This document shows, in pieces, positions 27,188 through 39,760 of a DNA stretch of 64,000 nucleotides. The DNA lies in the NCBI GenBank assembly GCA_029247265.1, contig JAQWLN010000165.1, positions 1 to 64,000 on the forward strand, read 5' to 3'. The notes beneath the pieces were generated by a model. The model did no database searches and had not been told where the DNA came from. It saw only the letters and a list, made by a program, of their open reading frames with translations. How positions within the stretch are numbered: the stretch's first letter is position 1; every line of letters starts with the position of its first letter. A program made the position numbers and the translations under genes. Origin of the DNA: Fuerstiella sp. Its GTDB lineage: Bacteria; Planctomycetota; Planctomycetia; Planctomycetales; Planctomycetaceae.

Positions 27188-28981
27188 TCACGGCGACGAA
27201 TTCGGGGACGGCTCCGGCGCCTGTGACGTCGGTGGCTGTTCAATCTGTTCCTTTGTGGGAATCGGATATCTTGTGTCGTTGGATCGATTTCGGGCGTAGT
27301 GATAGAACCACTGGAACAAGTTGGACTGGACTCCCTTGAACTCGTTTGCCGTGTAGTTCCAGATTTTCTTCGCTTCTTCCCTGTCGTCACTGGCAAGTAA
27401 TTCCTCCGCCGCTTGCATGCGTTCAGACAGAAATTTATGTGCATCCGAACTTTCGATCAGCATCTGTCGAAAGTGAGCGTGGTGGTTTTCGCACAGGATC
27501 GTCAGCCAGCGAACTTCGTCATCCGGCGATTCGATCGCTCGTCCCGTGGCAATCAAACCCTTCCAGCGTTCCAGCGTCGGCAGAGGATTTACGGAAAGAA
27601 TTCCGTCGGAAACGGGTTCATCAGTGTTGCTCCAGTTAATGACGTACTTCAGTCCGGCTTCGTCTTCCTGCTTAACCGCCTGTGCACACTCTGCCTTAAA
27701 CGGTGAATCGATTTCGGCATCACGGTCAGCCAGACGCTTGAGCGGTGTCTCCAGAATGAGTGGATGAATTCTGTCCGAAACCTCCTTGGCCTCACCAACA
27801 TACTTACCTTCGGGAAAGGATATCAGATATTTATCTGCCTGTTCCGCAGCGTCTCGCCGAGCGTACTCCACGTCCTCCGGCTGCCCCGCTGCGCTAACGC
27901 TCATAAGTTCCTGCCACGCGTCGTGGTATGAATCTTCACCGGGCGGTCTCAACAGCCACGCCGTGGCCCCTATCAAAACAGCCAGACAGGTCGCGAGAAA
28001 CCATGTTTGCTCGTGAAAAGGGACGTCCGCCTTCTTCTTTTTGTTCTTCTTCTTTTTGTTCTTCTTCTTTTTCTTCTTCGGAGAGTCGTCTTTCCTGTCC
28101 GACTTTTTTGACACGGGAGCGCCAACAACCGTATCCGCCATAGCCGCCCCCACGCCGGCAGTTACCTGGTCCCGAATCTCACCCAGTTCGGTATGAACGG
28201 CAAGCGCATCATGCGGACGGTCGTCAGGACTCTTCGCCAGCAATCGTTCGATCAATCTGTCCAGCCAGACCGGGCAGTCCGGAACTTTTTCGCAGACGTT
28301 GTATGGATCGTCGTTCAGATGCTGCATCAGCATGTCCATTGGATTGTCCGACTGAAACGGAGTCTCACCGACAACGACTTCGTACAACAGACAGCCGAGG
28401 GCATACAAATCGGTCTTGCCTGTAATCGGAAAGCCGGCCTGGATCTGTTCGGGAGCCATGTAGGCATACGTGCCGACGGTTTTTCCGGCAGCCGTCAGCG
28501 CCGTTGCTTCTGTGTCGCGCGCAATGCCAAAGTCACCGAGCTTAAGCCGTCCTTTTTTTGACAGAAACAGGTTTGCCGGCTTCAGATCCCGGTGAATGAT
28601 GCCAGCGTTATGAGCATGCTCAAGAGCACTGGAAACCTGTCGCCCGACGTGAACGGTCTGCTCCCACGATAGTCGCGTGCGTTTCTTCAACACTTCCAGC
28701 AGCGAACCGCCGTCGATGTATTCCATCGCATACCAGCGCTGATCACCATCGGTGCCACCACCGTAGTACTTCACGATATTAGGGTGGTCCAGCCGCCGCA
28801 GAATTTCGATTTCGCGTTCGAAACGTTTCAACAGCTTCGGGTCCGAGATCAGTCCCGGCGCAAGAACCTTGATGGCCACCTTCTTGTTGTTCTTGGGGTA
28901 CAGTGCCGAATACACGATCCCCATACCGCCGACACCGATTTGTTTGTCGAGAATAAATGGGCCCAATTGGCGAGCTGACAT
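27188..28981 (-). CDS. Receptor-like Ser/Thr protein kinase with poly-Lys linker
   Basis: The 597-residue protein has a full Hanks-type kinase domain: the G-loop GVGGMG at 16-21, VAIK (Lys 38), HRDLKPANLF, DFGIARD and MAPEQ. After residue 290 lies a Lys/Asn-rich stretch (KKKKKKNKKKKNKKKK), one transmembrane segment (TWFLATCLAVLIGATAWLLR) and an extracytoplasmic region with long helices. The start at 28981 (MSARQLGPFILD) is chosen because it begins the kinase fold. It is divergent from an FHA protein, which suggests a phosphorylation signalling pair. Confidence 0.93.
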   Translation of the reverse strand: MSARQLGPFILDKQIGVGGMGIVYSALYPKNNKKVAIKVLAPGLISDPKLLKRFEREIEILRRLDHPNIVKYYGGGTDGDQRWYAMEYIDGGSLLEVLKKRTRLSWEQTVHVGRQVSSALEHAHNAGIIHRDLKPANLFLSKKGRLKLGDFGIARDTEATALTAAGKTVGTYAYMAPEQIQAGFPITGKTDLYALGCLLYEVVVGETPFQSDNPMDMLMQHLNDDPYNVCEKVPDCPVWLDRLIERLLAKSPDDRPHDALAVHTELGEIRDQVTAGVGAAMADTVVGAPVSKKSDRKDDSPKKKKKKNKKKKNKKKKADVPFHEQTWFLATCLAVLIGATAWLLRPPGEDSYHDAWQELMSVSAAGQPEDVEYARRDAAEQADKYLISFPEGKYVGEAKEVSDRIHPLILETPLKRLADRDAEIDSPFKAECAQAVKQEDEAGLKYVINWSNTDEPVSDGILSVNPLPTLERWKGLIATGRAIESPDDEVRWLTILCENHHAHFRQMLIESSDAHKFLSERMQAAEELLASDDREEAKKIWNYTANEFKGVQSNLFQWFYHYARNRSNDTRYPIPTKEQIEQPPTSQAPEPSPNSSP

Positions 28982-29436
28982 GAATCGTGCCTGAACAAGA
29001 ACATTTTGAACTTCTGAGCCAAGTTTGACATACTCGCCACCCAGAAACAATCAGAACCACGAACGACGATCTCTATCCAGAACGTTCAGGTCCGCCGGGA
29101 CTCACCCGGGGCAGAATGGATACGATACCTTGTACGGCTCTGGCCGAAGATGAACACCTCTGTGTCCTAATCGAAGGGCAAACAATGACGGTCAAAGGCA
29201 CGTCGATGAGTTGAAGCCAGGCTCGGATTCAACCCACTGAATGAATCAACTGAGACTGCAGCCACGTTCAGAAGCTGCAGTCAGCGAACGTCCGATTGGA
29301 CCAATTACGCGGCCCATGCATCTTTTGCCCAGCCTGGCGGGGCCGATTCCCGTGCAAATTGTGTTCCCTCACGACTCGTCCTTGACTTTTCGATGGGTTC
29401 GTCCCGAGACTGTTAGTACCGCCATTTCCATTCTGA
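28982..29436. other. Spacer between divergent kinase and FHA genes
   Basis: The 455 bases hold no supported gene or repeat. They should contain both promoters; none is clear by eye. Confidence 0.35.
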
Positions 29437-29898
29437 ATGGCCATCATCACATCTTTCCTGATGACGCTGATGCTTGCTCAACTGATTCCAGTCAAATACG
29501 GTGCCCCGATTACCCTGACGAAACCAATCACGGTCGTTGGGCGTAGTACGCGACTGTGTGACCTGGCAGTCGACCACGGAAGTGTTTCGAAACTGCACTG
29601 TATCTTGGTGAAAACGGACGGGCTGATCTACATGCGGGACCTGGGCAGCACCAACGGAACGCGTGTCAACGGTCAGCGCGTGCTGAGAGGAGCCTTGTTG
29701 CCGGGCGACACGATCAGCTTTTCCGGAGCCGCATATGCTGTACACCTTGGCCCGGATCCGCAACTGTCTGCCTGCCGCGAAGTCAACGACGCTGCCACGC
29801 AAATGGTTCCAGTCGTCACCAGCAGCGATCCGGAACTGCCGGAAATAGACGACGATGTAAAACTGCTGTCCGATTCTGACCTGCTGGCGGCGGACTGA
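29437..29898 (+). CDS. FHA domain protein
   Basis: The 153-residue protein has one forkhead-associated domain: TVVGRSTRLCDLAVDHGSVS, KLHCILVKTDGLIYMRDLGS and TNGTRVNGQRVL, which include the Gly-Arg, Ser and Asn-Gly residues that contact phosphothreonine in the family. It therefore probably recognises phosphorylated protein. The C-terminus is acidic. Starts are uncertain (29437, 29461, 29470). It sits divergently beside the Ser/Thr kinase gene, its most likely partner by context. Confidence 0.83.
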   Translation: MAIITSFLMTLMLAQLIPVKYGAPITLTKPITVVGRSTRLCDLAVDHGSVSKLHCILVKTDGLIYMRDLGSTNGTRVNGQRVLRGALLPGDTISFSGAAYAVHLGPDPQLSACREVNDAATQMVPVVTSSDPELPEIDDDVKLLSDSDLLAAD

Positions 29899-30045: not shown

Positions 30046-30534
30046 CTACCGCTTCTTCGGATAATCAAAGTCCGCGAACGTCGCTGCCTCAATACGATGC
30101 CACTCAGACGCCTCCACAGTCAAAATCCCGCACGTCGGAACGTTTTCGATAGGCGCGTCGGAAAACCAGTTGGCGAGCTCGGTGATGGCAGGGTTGTGAG
30201 TCACCACCAGTGCTACCTGAATGCGGTCGTCCAAACCTGAGACGATAGCCAATACGTCCTGAGAACTGGCCGCGTACAACTCATCCTCAACAACGATGGC
30301 TGGTGACGAGTAGCCGACTTCGTGAGCAAGCAGTTGCGCCGTCGTCAGAGCTCTAACGGCCGGACTGCTGACGATCAAATCGGGAACCAATGATCGCGCC
30401 AATAGTCGCTGTCCCATGATCGGAGCATCTCTGGTTCCACGCTTGTTCAAAGGACGTTCGCTGTCCTCCAGCTCAGGGTGTTTCCAGCTGGACTTCGCGT
30501 GACGGACCAAAAATAATGTTTTCAGCATGGGCAT
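30046..30534 (-). CDS. sixA: SixA-type phosphohistidine phosphatase
   Basis: The 162-residue protein is a histidine phosphatase. It starts LFLVRHAKSSWKHPELEDSE, with the RHG-like RHA motif and the general-fold residues (RPLNKRGTRDAP, SSPAVRALTTAQLL and ALVVTHNPAI). In other bacteria SixA removes phosphate from histidine kinases or PTS proteins. The ATG at 30534 or 30528 is the start. It lies between the FHA and Hsp70 genes, convergent with the former. Its partner here is unknown. Confidence 0.9.
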   Translation of the reverse strand: MPMLKTLFLVRHAKSSWKHPELEDSERPLNKRGTRDAPIMGQRLLARSLVPDLIVSSPAVRALTTAQLLAHEVGYSSPAIVVEDELYAASSQDVLAIVSGLDDRIQVALVVTHNPAITELANWFSDAPIENVPTCGILTVEASEWHRIEAATFADFDYPKKR

Positions 30535-30558: not shown

Positions 30559-33402
30559 TTACTGAATCCGCAGGCCGGTCGGTAGTGACTCGCCGAATAC
30601 CAAGCCAGCCTCGTCGCTTTCGAGTTCGCCACCCTCACGAATAAGCATTACGAAATGGTCGGGCGCTCCGGCTGACTGCATCTCTTTCACTACCGCTGAT
30701 CGGACGTCGTCCGAGATGTCTCGAAAGCGATCATCGGTTTTTCGCGACAATTGCATCAGTGCCAGTTGCGTGACGGAATCGCTGACATCCGCGACGTCGA
30801 TAATTGATTCAATCCAGCTTTCCGCCTCAGAAGTCGGCAGCACCGTGTTCAACGGTCCGTATACGGGCACTCGGGCACCGATTCTTCCGACCGCCCAGAT
30901 GAGCGCCGGGCGTATGTTTTCAAATGCCGGTCTGGGCAGAAAGTTCAGAGCAATGCGGCCAAGCTCCCTGCGAGTGGATCGGTCCAGCAATTCCATGGAA
31001 GCCAGCATCCGCCAGATTTCCGACTCCTCATGACTTCCGGAAGCATAGTCCGCCCCCTTGCCACGTCCCGATTTGACTTGCCGGTGTTTCTGCCGGATCA
31101 ATGCGATCACAGAAGACGTGAGTTCGTTCTGTGTGCCGCGATTAATTCCGCCGGCAATTCTGCGGCACAGGATTCTCCATTCCGTGCGAGTGTTCGGGCT
31201 GGCGTGAACCAGTTTTCCCCGAGTGACTTTCAGTGTCTGCTCAACGCGCCAGTCATCGGCAGCCATACCAAAGCCAGGCCGCAGTCCGAACCCCAGAAGA
31301 TTCAGCCACCGTGCTTCGTGGGCAGCGCTGCGTTTTCGCCCCGCTGCAGATTCAATCAGATTGCCCCAGATACTACGCAGCAGTGACGGCGGCCAGTCTG
31401 CACGGCTCAGGGAAATTTCCCGGGCAATCCGCTTCGGCAGTCCGTCCGGCTTTTCCGTGCCTTTCGTCGCGTAAACCGACGAAAGAATCCCGTCGACACT
31501 GTCCAGCGTTTCCTGATCAACAATTCCCGCCTGTTCCGCCGCACCGGTGTGCACTTCGCGATCGGTTTCCGTCGAAGACCGGACGTCAAACTGAAGTTGC
31601 CAGCGACGGTCACCATTGACCTGTCGGCACCACATTTCCAGCGTCCCGATTTCCGTCAGCCGCGCGGATAGTCGAGCGGTCACTACGTCCGTCTGGTCTT
31701 TTTTACGAGTCTGCAGCACGGTTCGAATCGGCGGCAGAGCGTACAGCTGCTCTTCGTTGATCTCATACAGTTCGCCAGACTGATCTGTTAATCGAGTCCC
31801 CGATACGAAAATCGGAAACTGCACGGGTTCCGATGTACGTATCTGAAAGTCCCGTTCTATTTCAACAGGCTCGCTGCTCGGTTCGCTGCCCGCCGGCACC
31901 AGACACAACGCCGACGTCTGTCCGTCGGAACCTTCGATCCCCACGTAATACGTCCGCGCCAGACCAGCGACGATTTTTACGCCAATGCCGCGCCGCACCA
32001 TACCGAACGACGCAGCACCATGAGCGACCGCCAGATCAAGGCGTTTGTTCTGCAGAATCTGTGGTGACCAGGATTCGTCTGAATCACTAAACCACGATGT
32101 CAGTACCGAAATCAGCCGGGTCTGCAGAATCGACGACGCAAAGAAACCTCCATTGAACAACACGACATCAGGCCGCGCGCAGTCCGCAACATCCCCTTCG
32201 GCGTCTGTGTCATCAGCGTGAGACTTCAGAAACGCAGCCAGATATTTGGTAATCGCGGGATCGGCCGCGTACGGCAGACCGAACTCCTGAAAACCGGATT
32301 GACGACTCTGAGGTTTCTCGCTGAACTCTGCATCAGGCAGAAAACCGTCGACAAGCAATTTAACAACTTCATCGCGACGGACGTTCACCTGCAGGCCACC
32401 ACCGATCAGTTTCGATCCTGTGCCGGGCAGAGCAATGGTGAATTCCTCGGGCGCGTTTTCCTGTAACAGAGTTTCCTTGACGTGGCGGCAGGTGGGAACC
32501 AGAACGCTCCACTGCCGAGGCTGAAGCTTGCCGTCCCCCATCAATTCTCGTTCAACATGGTAGGCCAGCGCCAAATCCAGATTATCGCCGCCCAGCATCA
32601 AGTGGTTGCCAACAGCGATTCGATGAAATCGAACCTTGCCGTCGTCGCCCGGACGAACGTGAATCAGCGTAAAGTCAGACGTGCCACCTCCAATGTCGCA
32701 GACAAGGATCTTCTGCCCGGGAACAACATGCTGCTCCCAGTCATCACGGTGGGCATGAACCCACGAATAGAACGCCGCCTGCGGTTCTTCGATCAGCACG
32801 ATGCGAGGAAGTCCGGCACTGCGGGCGGCAGCGACGGTCAATTCGCGAGCGACTTCGTCAAACGACGCTGGAATCGTGATTACAACGTCCTGCTGTGAAA
32901 GTGGCTCGTCAGGATGAAGGTGATCCCACGCTTCGCGAATATGCTGCAGATAGCGAGAACTGACGTCCACCGGCGACAGAGACTCAGCATCAGCCGCGCC
33001 GTGCCACGGCAACAATGCGGCCCGACGATCGACCCCCGCGTGGCACAACCACGACTTGGCCGATTCAATCATCCGGCCGGGGTTCGCCCGACCGAATTCC
33101 CGCGCAAACACACCGACACCGAATTTCGCATCCCTGCTGCTCCACGGCAATCGAAACGCGGACGCCGCCCCATCCGTTTCAGGGGGCTCATAGTGGAACG
33201 AAGGCAGCGTCGGGCGACTTTCCACTTCCCCCGGAGCGACCAGTTGAGCAATTGAAAACGTCTGAATCTGCCAGTCCTCCTGAAATGTATCGACAAAGCC
33301 AACGGCAGAATTCGTAGTGCCCAGGTCGATGCCGACGACAAACCGGCTGCGTTTGTTCTCTTCGTTCGGATGTGATTCTGCTGCGATATTCACAGTCTTC
33401 AC
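30559..33402 (-). CDS. Divergent Hsp70-family protein with large C-terminal extension
   Basis: The 947-residue protein has a Hsp70 ATPase domain with phosphate-1 VVGIDLGTTNSAVGFVD, IVLIEEPQAAFYSW, the phosphate-2 VCDIGGGTSDFTL and GGDNLDLAL. The substrate-binding part is not typical: about 300 additional C-terminal residues follow a beta-rich part, probably a DUF3731-like helical domain (family assignment from memory). No canonical EEVD-type tail is seen. The GTG at 33402 overlaps the preceding hsp70 gene by four bases, so translation is coupled. With that gene and DUF2760 it forms a putative chaperone set. Confidence 0.88.
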   Translation of the reverse strand: MKTVNIAAESHPNEENKRSRFVVGIDLGTTNSAVGFVDTFQEDWQIQTFSIAQLVAPGEVESRPTLPSFHYEPPETDGAASAFRLPWSSRDAKFGVGVFAREFGRANPGRMIESAKSWLCHAGVDRRAALLPWHGAADAESLSPVDVSSRYLQHIREAWDHLHPDEPLSQQDVVITIPASFDEVARELTVAAARSAGLPRIVLIEEPQAAFYSWVHAHRDDWEQHVVPGQKILVCDIGGGTSDFTLIHVRPGDDGKVRFHRIAVGNHLMLGGDNLDLALAYHVERELMGDGKLQPRQWSVLVPTCRHVKETLLQENAPEEFTIALPGTGSKLIGGGLQVNVRRDEVVKLLVDGFLPDAEFSEKPQSRQSGFQEFGLPYAADPAITKYLAAFLKSHADDTDAEGDVADCARPDVVLFNGGFFASSILQTRLISVLTSWFSDSDESWSPQILQNKRLDLAVAHGAASFGMVRRGIGVKIVAGLARTYYVGIEGSDGQTSALCLVPAGSEPSSEPVEIERDFQIRTSEPVQFPIFVSGTRLTDQSGELYEINEEQLYALPPIRTVLQTRKKDQTDVVTARLSARLTEIGTLEMWCRQVNGDRRWQLQFDVRSSTETDREVHTGAAEQAGIVDQETLDSVDGILSSVYATKGTEKPDGLPKRIAREISLSRADWPPSLLRSIWGNLIESAAGRKRSAAHEARWLNLLGFGLRPGFGMAADDWRVEQTLKVTRGKLVHASPNTRTEWRILCRRIAGGINRGTQNELTSSVIALIRQKHRQVKSGRGKGADYASGSHEESEIWRMLASMELLDRSTRRELGRIALNFLPRPAFENIRPALIWAVGRIGARVPVYGPLNTVLPTSEAESWIESIIDVADVSDSVTQLALMQLSRKTDDRFRDISDDVRSAVVKEMQSAGAPDHFVMLIREGGELESDEAGLVFGESLPTGLRIQ

Positions 33403-35195
33403 ACCTCCGCATCATCGCGAACGCTGAATTCCAGCTTCCAGCTTTCACCGCTGGCCGTATGCACGCAGGAAAGTTCGAAGATGCCCAATTCCGTGATCCG
33501 TGATTGAAAGCGAACTGGAACATATTCGTCGCCCGCGTCCACATCTGCATTCAGGGTCGCCTCCATCGAATCAGTTTCCACGAGTTCATCTGCCGACCAG
33601 CGCTTCAGTTTGTCACCCGGCACATCGTCTGCACGACTGGAGGAGCTGAAAATGCGGAACCTTGCCGACTCGCCGACGACCAGGCCGATCTCTTCAGACG
33701 GCACGTCTGCCTCGGTTCCTTCTTCCATACCGTGCGGCACGACACACAGAGCCGACATCGGCCGCGGAGCACCGGGGATTGCCAGACCTGCGGTTTCTAT
33801 GCCAACGTAATACGACCGTGGCGTCCCCCCGCGAATTCGAATACCGCCGCGCTGACTGGTCCATGCATAAAATGCGGCTCCACGACCGACGGCGTAGTCA
33901 AGATCGTGATCACCGGCCAGAATCTGTGGCGCGGCATCGCCGTACCAGTCAGCAAGACGGTCCAGCAATGCCTGCTGCAGCCGGTCTGATTTGAAGACTC
34001 CACCGTTGAACAGCAAATGAGTCGGGGCAGACGAATCAGCAGATTCTTCGTCTGTCTGTCGCTGCAGAAAGGACGCAAGATGACGAGTGATCGCAGTGTC
34101 CGCTTCGTACGGCAGGCCGATTTCCTGAAATCCGGACACTCTTTGTCGGGACGGCTGCTCTGAAACATCGCACTTTGTGAAAAAACCATCGACGAGCAAA
34201 CGTGCCACGTCTTCGCGATTCACTTCGACCGACACGCTACCACCAATCAGTCGACTGCCCCGTCCCGCGACAGAAATTGTCTGTGTCTCAGGACCATCTG
34301 CTGCCAGCAGAGTTTCTTTGGCCGCACGACAGGAGTGCCACAGCGACACAGACTGCCACGGATCCAGATCCGTCCCCTTTTCGCGGAACAATTCTGACAC
34401 GTGGTACGCCAGCGCCAGGTCCATGTTATCGCCACCGACAAGCAGGTGGTTTCCGACGGCCTGCCGCCGCAACTGCAGTTCACCGTCTTCTTCACCGGCA
34501 GCCACTAGGGTCAGGTCGGTGGTTCCGCCGCCGACGTCACACACCAGCAACCGGTCTCCGGCGGCCAGCGATTTTCGCCAGTCGTCTCCCGACGACGAAA
34601 GCCACGCATAGGTCGCCGCCTGAGGTTCCTCCAGCAATACCAATGAATCCGGAAGACCGGCTGCCAGCGCCGCCTCACGAGTCAGTTCACGTGCGCTGGC
34701 ATCAAACGAAGCAGGCACGGTCAGTACGACCTGCTGCTGTGCAATCGGCTCGTCAGGGAACGCCTGAGTCCAGGATGCTACCAAATGTTCCAGGTATCGC
34801 TGTGAGGCCGTCACTGGCGAAACCTGTGGCACATTGTCCGGTGCTTTCCATGGTAGAATGGGCTGATGACGGTCCACTCGACTGTGGCACAGCCAGGATT
34901 TGGCCGTGCCGACCGTGCGATCAGGATTCTCGGACGACTGCGATCGGGCGACTTCACCGACGGCGAATTCACAGTTTTCCGCCCAAGGCAAATCGAACTC
35001 GTGCGATTCGACTTCGCCCCTGCGAGCCACGTACAAAAACGACGGCAGCGAATCGCGACGCTCAACGGTTTGCGGAGCCACAAGTTGAGGAATCGGCAGC
35101 AGCTCCACCTGCGGGATTTCGGAATCCAGCGATGCGAATGCCAGCACACTGTTTGTGGTGCCGAGGTCAATTCCGATGGCGTACTTGGCAGGCAT
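33399..35195 (-). CDS. Divergent Hsp70-family protein
   Basis: The 598-residue protein has IGIDLGTTNSVLAFASLDSE, LVLLEEPQAATYAW, LLVCDVGGGTTDLTLVA and GGDNMDLALAYHVSELFR, all Hsp70 ATPase elements, and a shortened C-terminal beta-sandwich-like part. It lacks the usual helical lid and resembles the first 600 residues of the downstream 947-residue protein, so the two look like products of duplication. The ATG at 35195 is the start. The gap to DUF2760 upstream holds a 72-base palindromic repeat. No DnaJ or GrpE gene is adjacent. The clients are unknown. Confidence 0.92.
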   Translation of the reverse strand: MPAKYAIGIDLGTTNSVLAFASLDSEIPQVELLPIPQLVAPQTVERRDSLPSFLYVARRGEVESHEFDLPWAENCEFAVGEVARSQSSENPDRTVGTAKSWLCHSRVDRHQPILPWKAPDNVPQVSPVTASQRYLEHLVASWTQAFPDEPIAQQQVVLTVPASFDASARELTREAALAAGLPDSLVLLEEPQAATYAWLSSSGDDWRKSLAAGDRLLVCDVGGGTTDLTLVAAGEEDGELQLRRQAVGNHLLVGGDNMDLALAYHVSELFREKGTDLDPWQSVSLWHSCRAAKETLLAADGPETQTISVAGRGSRLIGGSVSVEVNREDVARLLVDGFFTKCDVSEQPSRQRVSGFQEIGLPYEADTAITRHLASFLQRQTDEESADSSAPTHLLFNGGVFKSDRLQQALLDRLADWYGDAAPQILAGDHDLDYAVGRGAAFYAWTSQRGGIRIRGGTPRSYYVGIETAGLAIPGAPRPMSALCVVPHGMEEGTEADVPSEEIGLVVGESARFRIFSSSSRADDVPGDKLKRWSADELVETDSMEATLNADVDAGDEYVPVRFQSRITELGIFELSCVHTASGESWKLEFSVRDDAEV

Positions 35196-35216
35196 TTTTT
35201 GTACAAGCGATTAAAA

Positions 35217-35288
35217 GGGTCGGGAGTCTTCTTCGGAGGAACAGTGTTTAACAGCGGTTCGTCTCGGGCGGAAAAAAACTCCCGACCC
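35217..35288. repeat. 72-base palindromic interspersed repeat, copy A
   Basis: The element starts GGGTCGGGAGT and ends ACTCCCGACCC, an 11-base perfect inverted repeat, with a less regular centre carrying GAAC and GTTC. A second copy of exactly the same length and similar sequence (about 52 of 72 bases by eye) is at 48944-49015, with slightly worse ends. This copy lies between the DUF2760 and hsp70 genes. It resembles a non-autonomous, REP-like or MITE-like repeat; no transposase is present. Confidence 0.8.
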
Positions 35289-35306
35289 TCCGACGATTTC
35301 ACGGCT

Positions 35307-35822
35307 TCAGCCCGCATCAATCTCAGCCGGAGCAATCACACCGACGGCTTGAGTACTGCCGTTCCACGTGGGCAATTCACAGCGGCCGGCTTGCCATCCG
35401 TGATGTGCCAGCGTTCCCGACGTCCGTCCGGATTCCGTTTCGCCAATCATTCGCAGCCTTCCGCCCGCCACACCATCGCTGATTTCCACGGCGCTGCCTT
35501 CCGACTGATCAACAACAGGGGAAATCGCGAACAGACGATCAAGGACCGTGCGACTGTCTCGATGAATGTCACGCACCGCTGCTCCGATTTGTGCGTCGGA
35601 ATACTCGTCGATCGGTTCCATTAGAAAGTCCACCAGCCGCGCCTCTCGCTGCAGCGAGGCCAGCAGCGTAACGGCATCATTACGAACAACGGGCGCCGGC
35701 TCTGGTTTGGCCGCAACCGGTTGTTCAGTAATAACTGGTGCCGCCGCGGAAACAAGGTCGGCCAGCTGCTGAGCCAACTCTCCGTTTGTCAGGACACGCC
35801 ATGCCAGACTTAACCGTCCCAT
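35307..35822 (-). CDS. DUF2760 domain protein
   Basis: The 171-residue protein has a variable, Ala/Pro-rich N-terminal part and the conserved LQREARLVDFLMEPIDEYSD, then AQIGAAVRDIHRDSRTVLD, a signature of DUF2760. It ends in a small beta-rich region (LAHHGWQAGRCELPTW). DUF2760 genes are known to sit beside divergent hsp70 genes, as here (about 110 bases upstream). Its molecular role is unknown; a chaperone-partner function is inference from context. Confidence 0.87.
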   Translation of the reverse strand: MGRLSLAWRVLTNGELAQQLADLVSAAAPVITEQPVAAKPEPAPVVRNDAVTLLASLQREARLVDFLMEPIDEYSDAQIGAAVRDIHRDSRTVLDRLFAISPVVDQSEGSAVEISDGVAGGRLRMIGETESGRTSGTLAHHGWQAGRCELPTWNGSTQAVGVIAPAEIDAG

Positions 35823-38620: not shown

Positions 38621-39760
38621 TCACAACCACCTGGCGAGTACGTCGTGCAGAGACACACTCGACGGGTCGTCAGCATAATCAGCCAGCTCGGTGGCCAGCG
38701 CCTCCACGACGGGCAACCCCTGGGCATCGTCCGGCGACGAGGGCACCATCACTGTCGGCAACCACGTGATAACGTCCTCAATTCCGATTCCATCGATCGC
38801 CGAAGTTTCGATAATTTTCGTGGCGTCTGACATTTGCGGTAGCGGAGCAGGCCCCCCGTGTGACAAATCCGTCTTGTTCCAGAGAATCACAGACTGACAA
38901 TCGGCGGGGATGGCAGCCAATAACTCTGCGTCGGCATTCGTCCACCCCTTTTGTGAATCAACGACCAATAGGCAGGCGTCACAACTGGCGACAGACCCGC
39001 GAGCTGACTCAACGCCGATCGCTTCAATATCATTGCTGGCCCTGTCACGAATACCGGCGGTATCAATCAGCAGGAACGGCCACCCGTCCAACGTCAGCTC
39101 TGCTTCAACCAGATCTCGCGTCGTGCCCGGCTGATCAAAGACAATGGATCGTTCGTATCCGATGATCGCGTTCAGCAAACTTGACTTACCTGCGTTCGGC
39201 TGCCCGATCACGGCCGCACGCCAGGGCGTCGTCAGATGCGAGGCAAATGTCCGCCATCGCAGGAAATCAGCCAATACAGCAGCATTCGTCGCCGCATCCT
39301 CCTGGTCCGACAGTGTCGTCAGAAATCGACGCAGACCACCTGTGTACTGAGACAGCAGGAATGAGGCAGTTCTGCGAGTACGACATTTCAACAACTGTTC
39401 CAGAACAGCTGTTTCCAGTCGTCCTTCGGAGGTATCGTCGACTCGTTCCAACAGTAGCGAGTCCAAAGGCTGATCAACAACCGTCAGCTGTTGTGAAATA
39501 CGTGCCACGGCAGCATCGCCACCGTGACAATGGATCTCCCATTCGTGCTCACCGACCCGCACGACGACCACATCTTCACCGTCCCACATTCCATACAGAA
39601 TTCGACCGACAGCCGCATGCGACGGCAGCATTCCGTTGGCGGCCTGAAAGCAGGAATCGAAGCGACCAGACGTCTCCGCCCCCGCCATGTCCACTCGGAT
39701 CACGGCCACAGCTCCCCGGCCGGAAGCTGTCAATTGCGTGACCTTTACATCACCGTTCAT
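38621..39760 (-). CDS. MnmE-like GTPase lacking the catalytic C-terminal Cys
   Basis: The 379-residue protein has the MnmE/TrmE layout: an N-terminal domain with ASGRGAVAVIRV and VGEHEWEIHCHGG, then a G domain with G1 GQPNAGKSSLLNAI, GTTRDLVEAELTLDGW, DTAGIRD and NKTDL. It is about 70 residues shorter than normal MnmE and ends LHDVLARWL, without the final CIGK (Cys) motif that MnmE needs for tRNA modification. It is therefore either a divergent paralogue or a degraded gene. The ATG at 39760 is the natural start. An intact MnmE is not in this window. Confidence 0.8.
   Translation of the reverse strand: MNGDVKVTQLTASGRGAVAVIRVDMAGAETSGRFDSCFQAANGMLPSHAAVGRILYGMWDGEDVVVVRVGEHEWEIHCHGGDAAVARISQQLTVVDQPLDSLLLERVDDTSEGRLETAVLEQLLKCRTRRTASFLLSQYTGGLRRFLTTLSDQEDAATNAAVLADFLRWRTFASHLTTPWRAAVIGQPNAGKSSLLNAIIGYERSIVFDQPGTTRDLVEAELTLDGWPFLLIDTAGIRDRASNDIEAIGVESARGSVASCDACLLVVDSQKGWTNADAELLAAIPADCQSVILWNKTDLSHGGPAPLPQMSDATKIIETSAIDGIGIEDVITWLPTVMVPSSPDDAQGLPVVEALATELADYADDPSSVSLHDVLARWL

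Follow-up and report, generated by a model that had tools for sequence, protein, structure and literature searches.

A co-inherited DUF2760-Hsp70-Hsp70 gene set as a candidate Hsp70 machine without a canonical J-domain protein

Three types of Hsp70 are counted in prokaryotes in the available part of a review (PMC8215388). The described systems closest to the locus reported here are DnaK with DnaJ and GrpE, HscA with HscB, HscC of E. coli with DjlB and DjlC, and the Hsp70-Hsp110 (Sse1) pair. The locus lies in a stretch of 64,000 nucleotides (the window) from the planctomycete Fuerstiella sp. (assembly GCA_029247265.1, contig JAQWLN010000165.1) and consists of gene D, encoding a DUF2760 protein, followed by genes A and B, encoding a short and a long Hsp70. 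Like DnaK, A and B have an Hsp70 ATPase core, a beta-type substrate-binding domain (SBD-beta) and the invariant catalytic residues; the set differs from DnaK-DnaJ-GrpE in that it has no J-protein or GrpE, its J-protein dock and linker residues are replaced and the canonical lid is absent. HscC is also a specialised bacterial Hsp70, and would be the closest parallel in how it works should D be a membrane cofactor, but its partner has a J-domain, which was not found in DUF2760, and HscC keeps all seven of the dock/linker positions considered below. The HscA model gives the top NCBIfam score of both A and B, yet the two fall on a separate branch and the set has no HscB. Paired Hsp70-type ATPases, as in Hsp70-Hsp110, are possible in A and B too, with the extension of B being DUF3731. 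Pfam gives family membership for DUF3731 (PF12531, 'DNA-K related protein') and DUF2760 (PF10816), under names without a function.

Our results indicate that D, A and B are a real, co-inherited gene set and that A and B form an Hsp70 branch of their own. We propose, with about an even chance of being right, that the set is a dedicated Hsp70 machine that works without a canonical J-domain protein, with D as its cofactor, and that in many lineages it is sited at the membrane. The genes and their parts in the window are as follows.

35307-35822, minus strand: gene D, DUF2760 protein of 171 amino acids (open reading frame (ORF); PF10816, E 2.1e-37; AlphaFold2 model)
35742-35819, minus strand: D residues 2-27, N-terminal helices (model and hydropathy)
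35316-35681, minus strand: D residues 48-169, DUF2760 domain (Pfam)
33399-35195, minus strand: gene A, short Hsp70 of 598 amino acids, nucleotide-binding domain (NBD) and SBD-beta without a lid (ORF; Pfam; alignment)
33816-33848, minus strand: A residues 450-460, interdomain linker, with IRIRGG replacing the hydrophobic linker of DnaK (alignments to host DnaK and to E. coli DnaK, HscA and HscC)
33402-33815, minus strand: A residues 461-598, SBD-beta-like, ending the protein (alignment only)
33399-33402, minus strand: stop of A and start of B, four-base overlap GTGA (ORFs and sequence letters)
30559-33402, minus strand: gene B, long Hsp70 of 947 amino acids, GTG start (ORF; Pfam; AlphaFold2 model)
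31978-33345, minus strand: B residues 20-475, NBD (model, fold match, alignment)
31588-31941, minus strand: B residues about 488-605, SBD-beta (modelled strands; fold match to DnaK and BiP)
30565-31329, minus strand: B residues 692-946, DUF3731, all-helical, following SBD-beta at the place of the lid (Pfam, E 1.5e-72; model)

An earlier note on this DNA had described two Hsp70s, one with a C-terminal extension, following a DUF2760 gene, with the two Hsp70 genes overlapping by four bases; ORFs and Pfam agree with this description, down to the GTGA at the junction. It had also remarked on the absence of DnaJ, GrpE and a classical lid. A Pfam scan of the D, A and B proteins found no DnaJ or GrpE family, A stops after SBD-beta and therefore has no lid by alignment, and B carries DUF3731 instead.

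Both Hsp70s exceed the cut-off of the Pfam HSP70 profile (A 67.9 and B 65.4 bits versus 20.6) and have the ATPase residues and the NBD followed by a beta-sandwich SBD that define the superfamily, although not its helical lid (SBD-alpha). We compared 126 aligned rows (64 A and 62 B) at residues numbered as in E. coli DnaK. Nine positions of the ATPase set (D8, T11, K70, P143, R151, E171, D194, T199 and D201) were invariant in 64 of 64 A and were likewise found in 62 of 62 B, one B row being gapped at D8 and T11. Seven further positions (R167, N170, T173, Q378, L391, D393 and P419) are identical in E. coli DnaK, HscA and HscC and in the host DnaK. N170 and T173 we take to be J-domain contacts. 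R167, Q378, L391 and P419 are given as such contacts, L391 through its backbone, in the accessible part of the review cited above (PMC8215388), and D393 is a member of the R167 network in the available portion of another paper (PMC7289447). None of the seven was kept in 115 of the 126 rows and only one in 11: R167 persisted in 3 of 64 A and 6 of 62 B, T173 and P419 in one B each, and the other positions in none. N170 was replaced by E, and Q378 by Y or F, in every row, and several of the replacements are themselves conserved across phyla in A and B. With the J-protein dock lost and the ATPase kept, A and B probably run on a different partner.

In a FastTree phylogeny of 129 rows, to which a long-branch warning applies, A formed one clade (support 99) and the split between A and B needed a single change. 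A 35-row tree with E. coli DnaK, HscA, HscC and YegD and the host Hsp70s (one sequence each for HscA and HscC) set A and B apart (84/91), with DnaK, HscA, HscC and two host Hsp70s on the other side (100/98); its branches are long and B did not resolve as a clade. The best NCBIfam model for both proteins was that of HscA, NF003520 (B 87.6 and A 79.8 bits versus a cut-off of 620), and the HscA and DnaK models both score far under their cut-offs for A and B; the families listed did not include an HscC model. By NCBIfam score, shared dock/linker residues and place in the tree, neither protein belongs with DnaK, HscA or HscC, and on these grounds of sequence A and B are probably an Hsp70 type separate from all three.

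The host genome encodes, on other contigs (L184, L185 and L186), a canonical DnaK and two more Hsp70s, both of which lack R167 and Q378; one weak Hsp70 match was also found. Judging by these residues, the two extra Hsp70s may depart from the usual mode of J-domain use.

To assess distribution, we counted as carriers those of 294 evenly drawn Planctomycetota genomes (G000 included) that had a Pfam match over the cut-off, leaving out sub-cut-off matches in G179, G170 and G285. DUF2760 was present in 33 and DUF3731 in 30, with both in 29, a strong association (Fisher p 1.2e-34, uncorrected for kinship among the 294 genomes). Four genomes had D only: the B core of G253 is truncated at a contig end, Hsp70 fragments at contig ends in G065 and G277 are probably B, and the completeness of G214 is 67%. 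G282, with DUF3731 only, is 54% complete. A profile of 64 A rows, which at E 1e-60 picks up both A and B, found an Hsp70 of the A/B type in all 34 carriers of either domain (in G004 by a fragment only) and in none of 23 named non-carriers, including two genomes congeneric with the carrier G024.

The association extends well beyond this phylum. Scanning species genomes with a DUF2760 alignment gave at least 471 relatives among at least 587 pattern matches, the best 80 of which were taken; 79 lay in searchable genomes. Within these 79 D-carrying genomes of many phyla, a sample selected through D itself, DUF3731 was found in 75 (46 of 49 and 29 of 30) and an A/B-type Hsp70 in 77 (48 of 49 and 29 of 30). 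Neither was found in G323 and G355; the DUF3731-less G332 has an Hsp70 fragment only, and in the DUF3731-less G338 a B core reaches the contig end. The loci are assigned to 14 phyla, in some cases by the labels of metagenome bins, which are perhaps wrong. From this distribution, D, A and B are inherited together. The co-occurrence of DUF2760 with these Hsp70 types that the earlier note had wished to see surveyed is thus found across Planctomycetota and other phyla, and its view of an uncharacterised system is supported to this extent: the set is conserved, and no described function was found.

Gene order supports the same view. We compared 120 loci, including that of the window and with L101 dropped; some genomes give two loci and many loci are cut by contig ends. 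Co-oriented genes stood in the order DAB in 51 loci, DA in 31, DB in 9, AB in 2 and AD in 1, the last of which may be caused by a mechanical ORF start upstream of D. There was also one mixed-strand ADB, and D stood alone in 17 loci and B in 8. Loci from many phyla repeat this gene order, so D-A-B is, by this comparison, a real gene set and not a product of chance. In some genomes the genes are scattered: on the single contig of G283, D lies at about 4.52 Mb, A at about 0.58 Mb and B at about 1.73 Mb; on that of G024, B is about 2.95 Mb away from D-A; and in G216 the three genes are on three contigs. The set is kept although scattered, so co-inheritance is not mere linkage.

Not all three genes are equally constant. 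Adjoining D and B without an A found in the assembly occurred in 5 of the 79 genomes (G304, G308, G318, G362 and G367), two Planctomycetota (G235 and G290) have D beside B and no A in the searched assembly, and in G334 A is truncated. On a tree of 62 B proteins the A-less state required 6 changes, at least 4 of them forced by well-supported branches; 119 of 500 label shuffles gave as few changes, indicating that the A-less rows are dispersed over the tree, a pattern consistent with repeated loss. Gaps in assemblies could make A-less genomes look more numerous than they are. Apart from a Thiodictyon plasmid, all cases of A and D without B came from assemblies that are incomplete or probably so. 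D and B therefore seem, on sequence evidence, to be the core, and the apparent repeated loss of A suggests that A is dispensable to it. No fourth conserved gene emerged when neighbours were clustered over loci, as no neighbour family among the clusters occurred in more than six loci.

Similar genes, tryptophanyl-tRNA-synthetase-like by reading, follow A in three loci (L103, L106 and L127); in L106 and L127 they stand between A and B.

The AlphaFold2 model of D (predicted local distance difference test (pLDDT) 91.0, predicted template modelling score (pTM) 0.69) begins with two helices, followed by a loop, three further helices and a small stranded part, a fold without a match at E below 0.001 in PDB (best 0.87) or BFVD (best 0.35). 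The D of the window matched DUF2760 alone, no J-domain appeared in the 25 of 43 families listed for 64 members, and the letters HPD occurred in 3 of 110 D, near the N-terminus. GrpE was likewise absent from those 25 of 43 families and from the best 50 of 69 PDB fold matches.

Many D proteins have features of a membrane protein. Using a Kyte-Doolittle window above 1.6 as the transmembrane call, a simple hydropathy rule and not a trained predictor, we found two hydrophobic segments before the DUF2760 core in 26 of 26 Thermodesulfobacteriota, 8 of 12 Myxococcota-labelled and 3 of 3 Nitrospirota proteins. Overall, 43 of 110 D have this two-helix anchor, 4 of which were scored over the whole protein because their core could not be placed. 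In the remaining 39, the C-terminal side of the anchor is more positively charged than the loop in 35 and the N-terminal side in 31; these charges suggest that the DUF2760 domain is cytoplasmic. No A or B ORF had a hydrophobic segment in its first 60 residues (0 of 87 and 0 of 72, L101 included). The N-terminal helices of the window's D sit where Thermodesulfobacteriota D have their two predicted transmembrane helices. By hydropathy, then, D is membrane-anchored in many lineages, which recalls HscC and its J-proteins: HscC, DjlB and DjlC are connected with transmembrane clients and a membrane-localised function in the part of the review available (PMC8215388).

The model of B (pLDDT 87.1, pTM 0.87) shows the NBD, SBD-beta, a poorly modelled stretch (607-625) and then helices almost to the end, this helical part past SBD-beta being DUF3731 and its lead-in. 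By E-value, the best PDB match was ATP-bound DnaK (4jn4, 1.8e-20); B superposes better on BiP (6eoc; TM-score by target 0.72, 5.8 A), whose matching chains of about 520 residues are too short for a full lid. Sse1 was also among the fold matches. A sequence search of PDB found no relative of DUF3731 itself (best E 0.86), comparison of its profile with itself yielded the full-length match alone, and the domain has many charged residues that are invariant. HEAT repeats were considered and not relied on (1 of 24 members, E 0.022). The position of this domain in the model suggests that it may be a lid. The earlier note had taken the extension as a possible co-chaperone or substrate domain: the extension is real, but it is the named domain DUF3731, and DUF2760 is the better co-chaperone candidate because it stays with B when A is missing and is, by hydropathy, membrane-anchored in many lineages. 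Since DUF3731 has a name and no assigned function, the extension did not turn out to be a known, unrelated domain. A and B may divide the labour between them, as the note supposed.

In the mechanism that we propose, D would act as cofactor and targeting factor in the stead of a J-protein and would hold B, as well as A, on the inner side of the cytoplasmic membrane; in Planctomycetota the set would be cytosolic, or peripheral on the membrane through the N-terminal helices of D. ATP binding and hydrolysis would open and close SBD-beta, with the helical DUF3731 of B in the lid position; if A and B pair, this domain may also serve A in trans. A would widen or tune the range of clients, and could be lost. 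D is put forward as the cofactor because, of the neighbouring genes, it alone recurs with the Hsp70 pair and because it stays with B; it would bind B and may act at the former J dock. If so, an Hsp70 with an intact ATPase and no J dock is triggered in another way, and two orphan Pfam families, DUF2760 and DUF3731, gain a testable role. More tentatively, and with some doubt, the set could be a fourth widespread prokaryotic Hsp70 machine that has abandoned the J-domain switch, with DUF2760 as a structurally new class of cofactor, often membrane-anchored, and DUF3731 as a replacement lid or effector arm acting in cis on B and in trans on A.

Several observations weigh against this mechanism or the evidence for it. 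The loss of dock residues is not unique to A and B, since YegD keeps 0 of 7 dock/linker positions and the host Hsp70s L185 and L186 keep 4 and 2. Replacement of L391 alone proves little, as its contact is through the backbone, the loop around P419 aligns poorly, and D477, changed in A and B, is changed also in HscA and HscC and so does not discriminate; it was not counted, and neither was D481, which differs also in HscC and the host DnaK. The branch joining A and B is only moderately supported (84/91), and selection through D bears on the co-occurrence in the 79 genomes. Two hydrophobic segments were found in 0 of 47 Planctomycetota D and one in 14 of 47, and the D of the window has no predicted transmembrane helix (top 19-residue hydropathy 1.07). 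No fusion of D with A or B was found, and distance matrices over 52 loci single out no partner of D (D-A r 0.49, D-B r 0.48; partial 0.17 and 0.13). A J-protein with a matching altered interface may also be encoded elsewhere in the genome.

The chief rival reading, which we consider unlikely, makes D a dedicated client: A and B would fold, insert or remodel the DUF2760 protein, and D would be the effector of the pathway. That D nearly always accompanies B and is by hydropathy a membrane protein in many lineages, and that no further gene family stands next to the set in more than six loci, would all fit, and HscA is likewise specialised, for Fe-S assembly on IscU, in the available part of the review (PMC8215388). 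Yet the one domain of D is short, is modelled with confidence and matches nothing that points to an enzyme or channel, devoting two Hsp70s to a single small client would be extravagant, and the set would be left without any cofactor gene. Somewhat less probable still is that A and B are paralogues served by the housekeeping DnaJ and GrpE, or by a J-protein encoded elsewhere, with D as a membrane or localisation tag only. One full J-domain match, a 31-residue piece of another and one GrpE are indeed present elsewhere in the host genome, such a partner need not be in the operon (E. coli djlC adjoins hscC on the opposite strand), and nine of the 126 A and B rows retain R167; the total loss of the dock/linker positions in 115 of those rows, the invariance of several replacements and the lack of a prominent J-protein family among the 25 most recurrent neighbour clusters listed argue the other way.

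We regard as improbable a third possibility, that A and B act not as chaperones but in regulation or scaffolding, as ATPases of the actin/Hsp70 superfamily; DUF3731 would then be a protein-binding arm and D a membrane receptor. The ATPase core matches MreB/Mbl (28.1 bits in B, with a cut-off of 27, and 22.2, below it, in A), DUF3731 is rich in invariant charged residues and the branch to canonical Hsp70s is long; however, the MreB match reflects the shared ATPase core, and both proteins have SBD-beta, according to the model for B and the alignment for A.

Plasmids also carry these genes. A D query (from L061) and the B query matched the same 11 of 72,556 plasmid records, 7 of which are replicons over 1 Mb. 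A Bradyrhizobium plasmid typed as conjugative has a complete D-A-B (L182, 5390-10799) amid trb and tra conjugation genes, annotated as 'DUF2760 domain-containing protein' and 'Hsp70 family protein'. On the Thiodictyon plasmid (L183, 1-9839) a DUF2760-Hsp70 pair, the Hsp70 being A with no B adjoining, lies near annotated anti-phage genes (a DUF1156 protein and a phospholipase D-like protein) and a Uma2 endonuclease.

Other readings of the locus were rejected. As to a mobile or phage-borne element, patterns from the window's D only found no relative of D on viral contigs. Fourteen phage records match A, none covering 80% of it; the ten listed share 27-29% identity, and three are annotated (DnaK or HscA). 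As to a defence system, the only PADLOC match was B at E 0.008, and anti-phage neighbours were seen at the single Thiodictyon relative only. No CIRCE-like site (controlling inverted repeat of chaperone expression) occurred in the window within 3 mismatches, giving no sign of heat-shock control, and promoter and terminator scans gave no more than chance.

Barriot et al. 2020, cited in the review (PMC8215388), may describe Hsp70s of the A/B type. In the open-access literature, which is not all print, we found no paper under DUF2760, DUF3731, PF12531 or PF10816, and no function is described for the D-A-B set in the part searched. In the available portions of papers, 'DnaK-related protein' occurs in table or list entries only. 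Two concern Vibrio cholerae: a biofilm repression screen (PMC9201469, in its accessible part) lists VC1374, together with VC1373-1375, as DnaK-related, and VC1373 is DnaK-related in a riboflavin/iron transcriptome (PMC5816637, likewise). From these listings alone, VC1373-VC1375 may be a D-A-B operon.

Finally, we noted the genes surrounding the locus in the window. A histidine-phosphatase-family gene (30046-30534, minus strand; PF00300, SixA-like by reading) begins 24 bases downstream of B and is perhaps co-transcribed with it; the neighbours at other loci included nothing similar. A putative GTPase of the MnmE/TrmE kind, by reading of its translation, is encoded at 38621-39760 (minus strand). 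Near the operon is an FHA-domain protein on the opposite strand (29437-29898, plus strand). A Ser/Thr protein kinase with a lysine-rich linker (27188-29050, minus strand) likewise lies near the operon, and relatives of it, from a common family, stand near 5 other loci.

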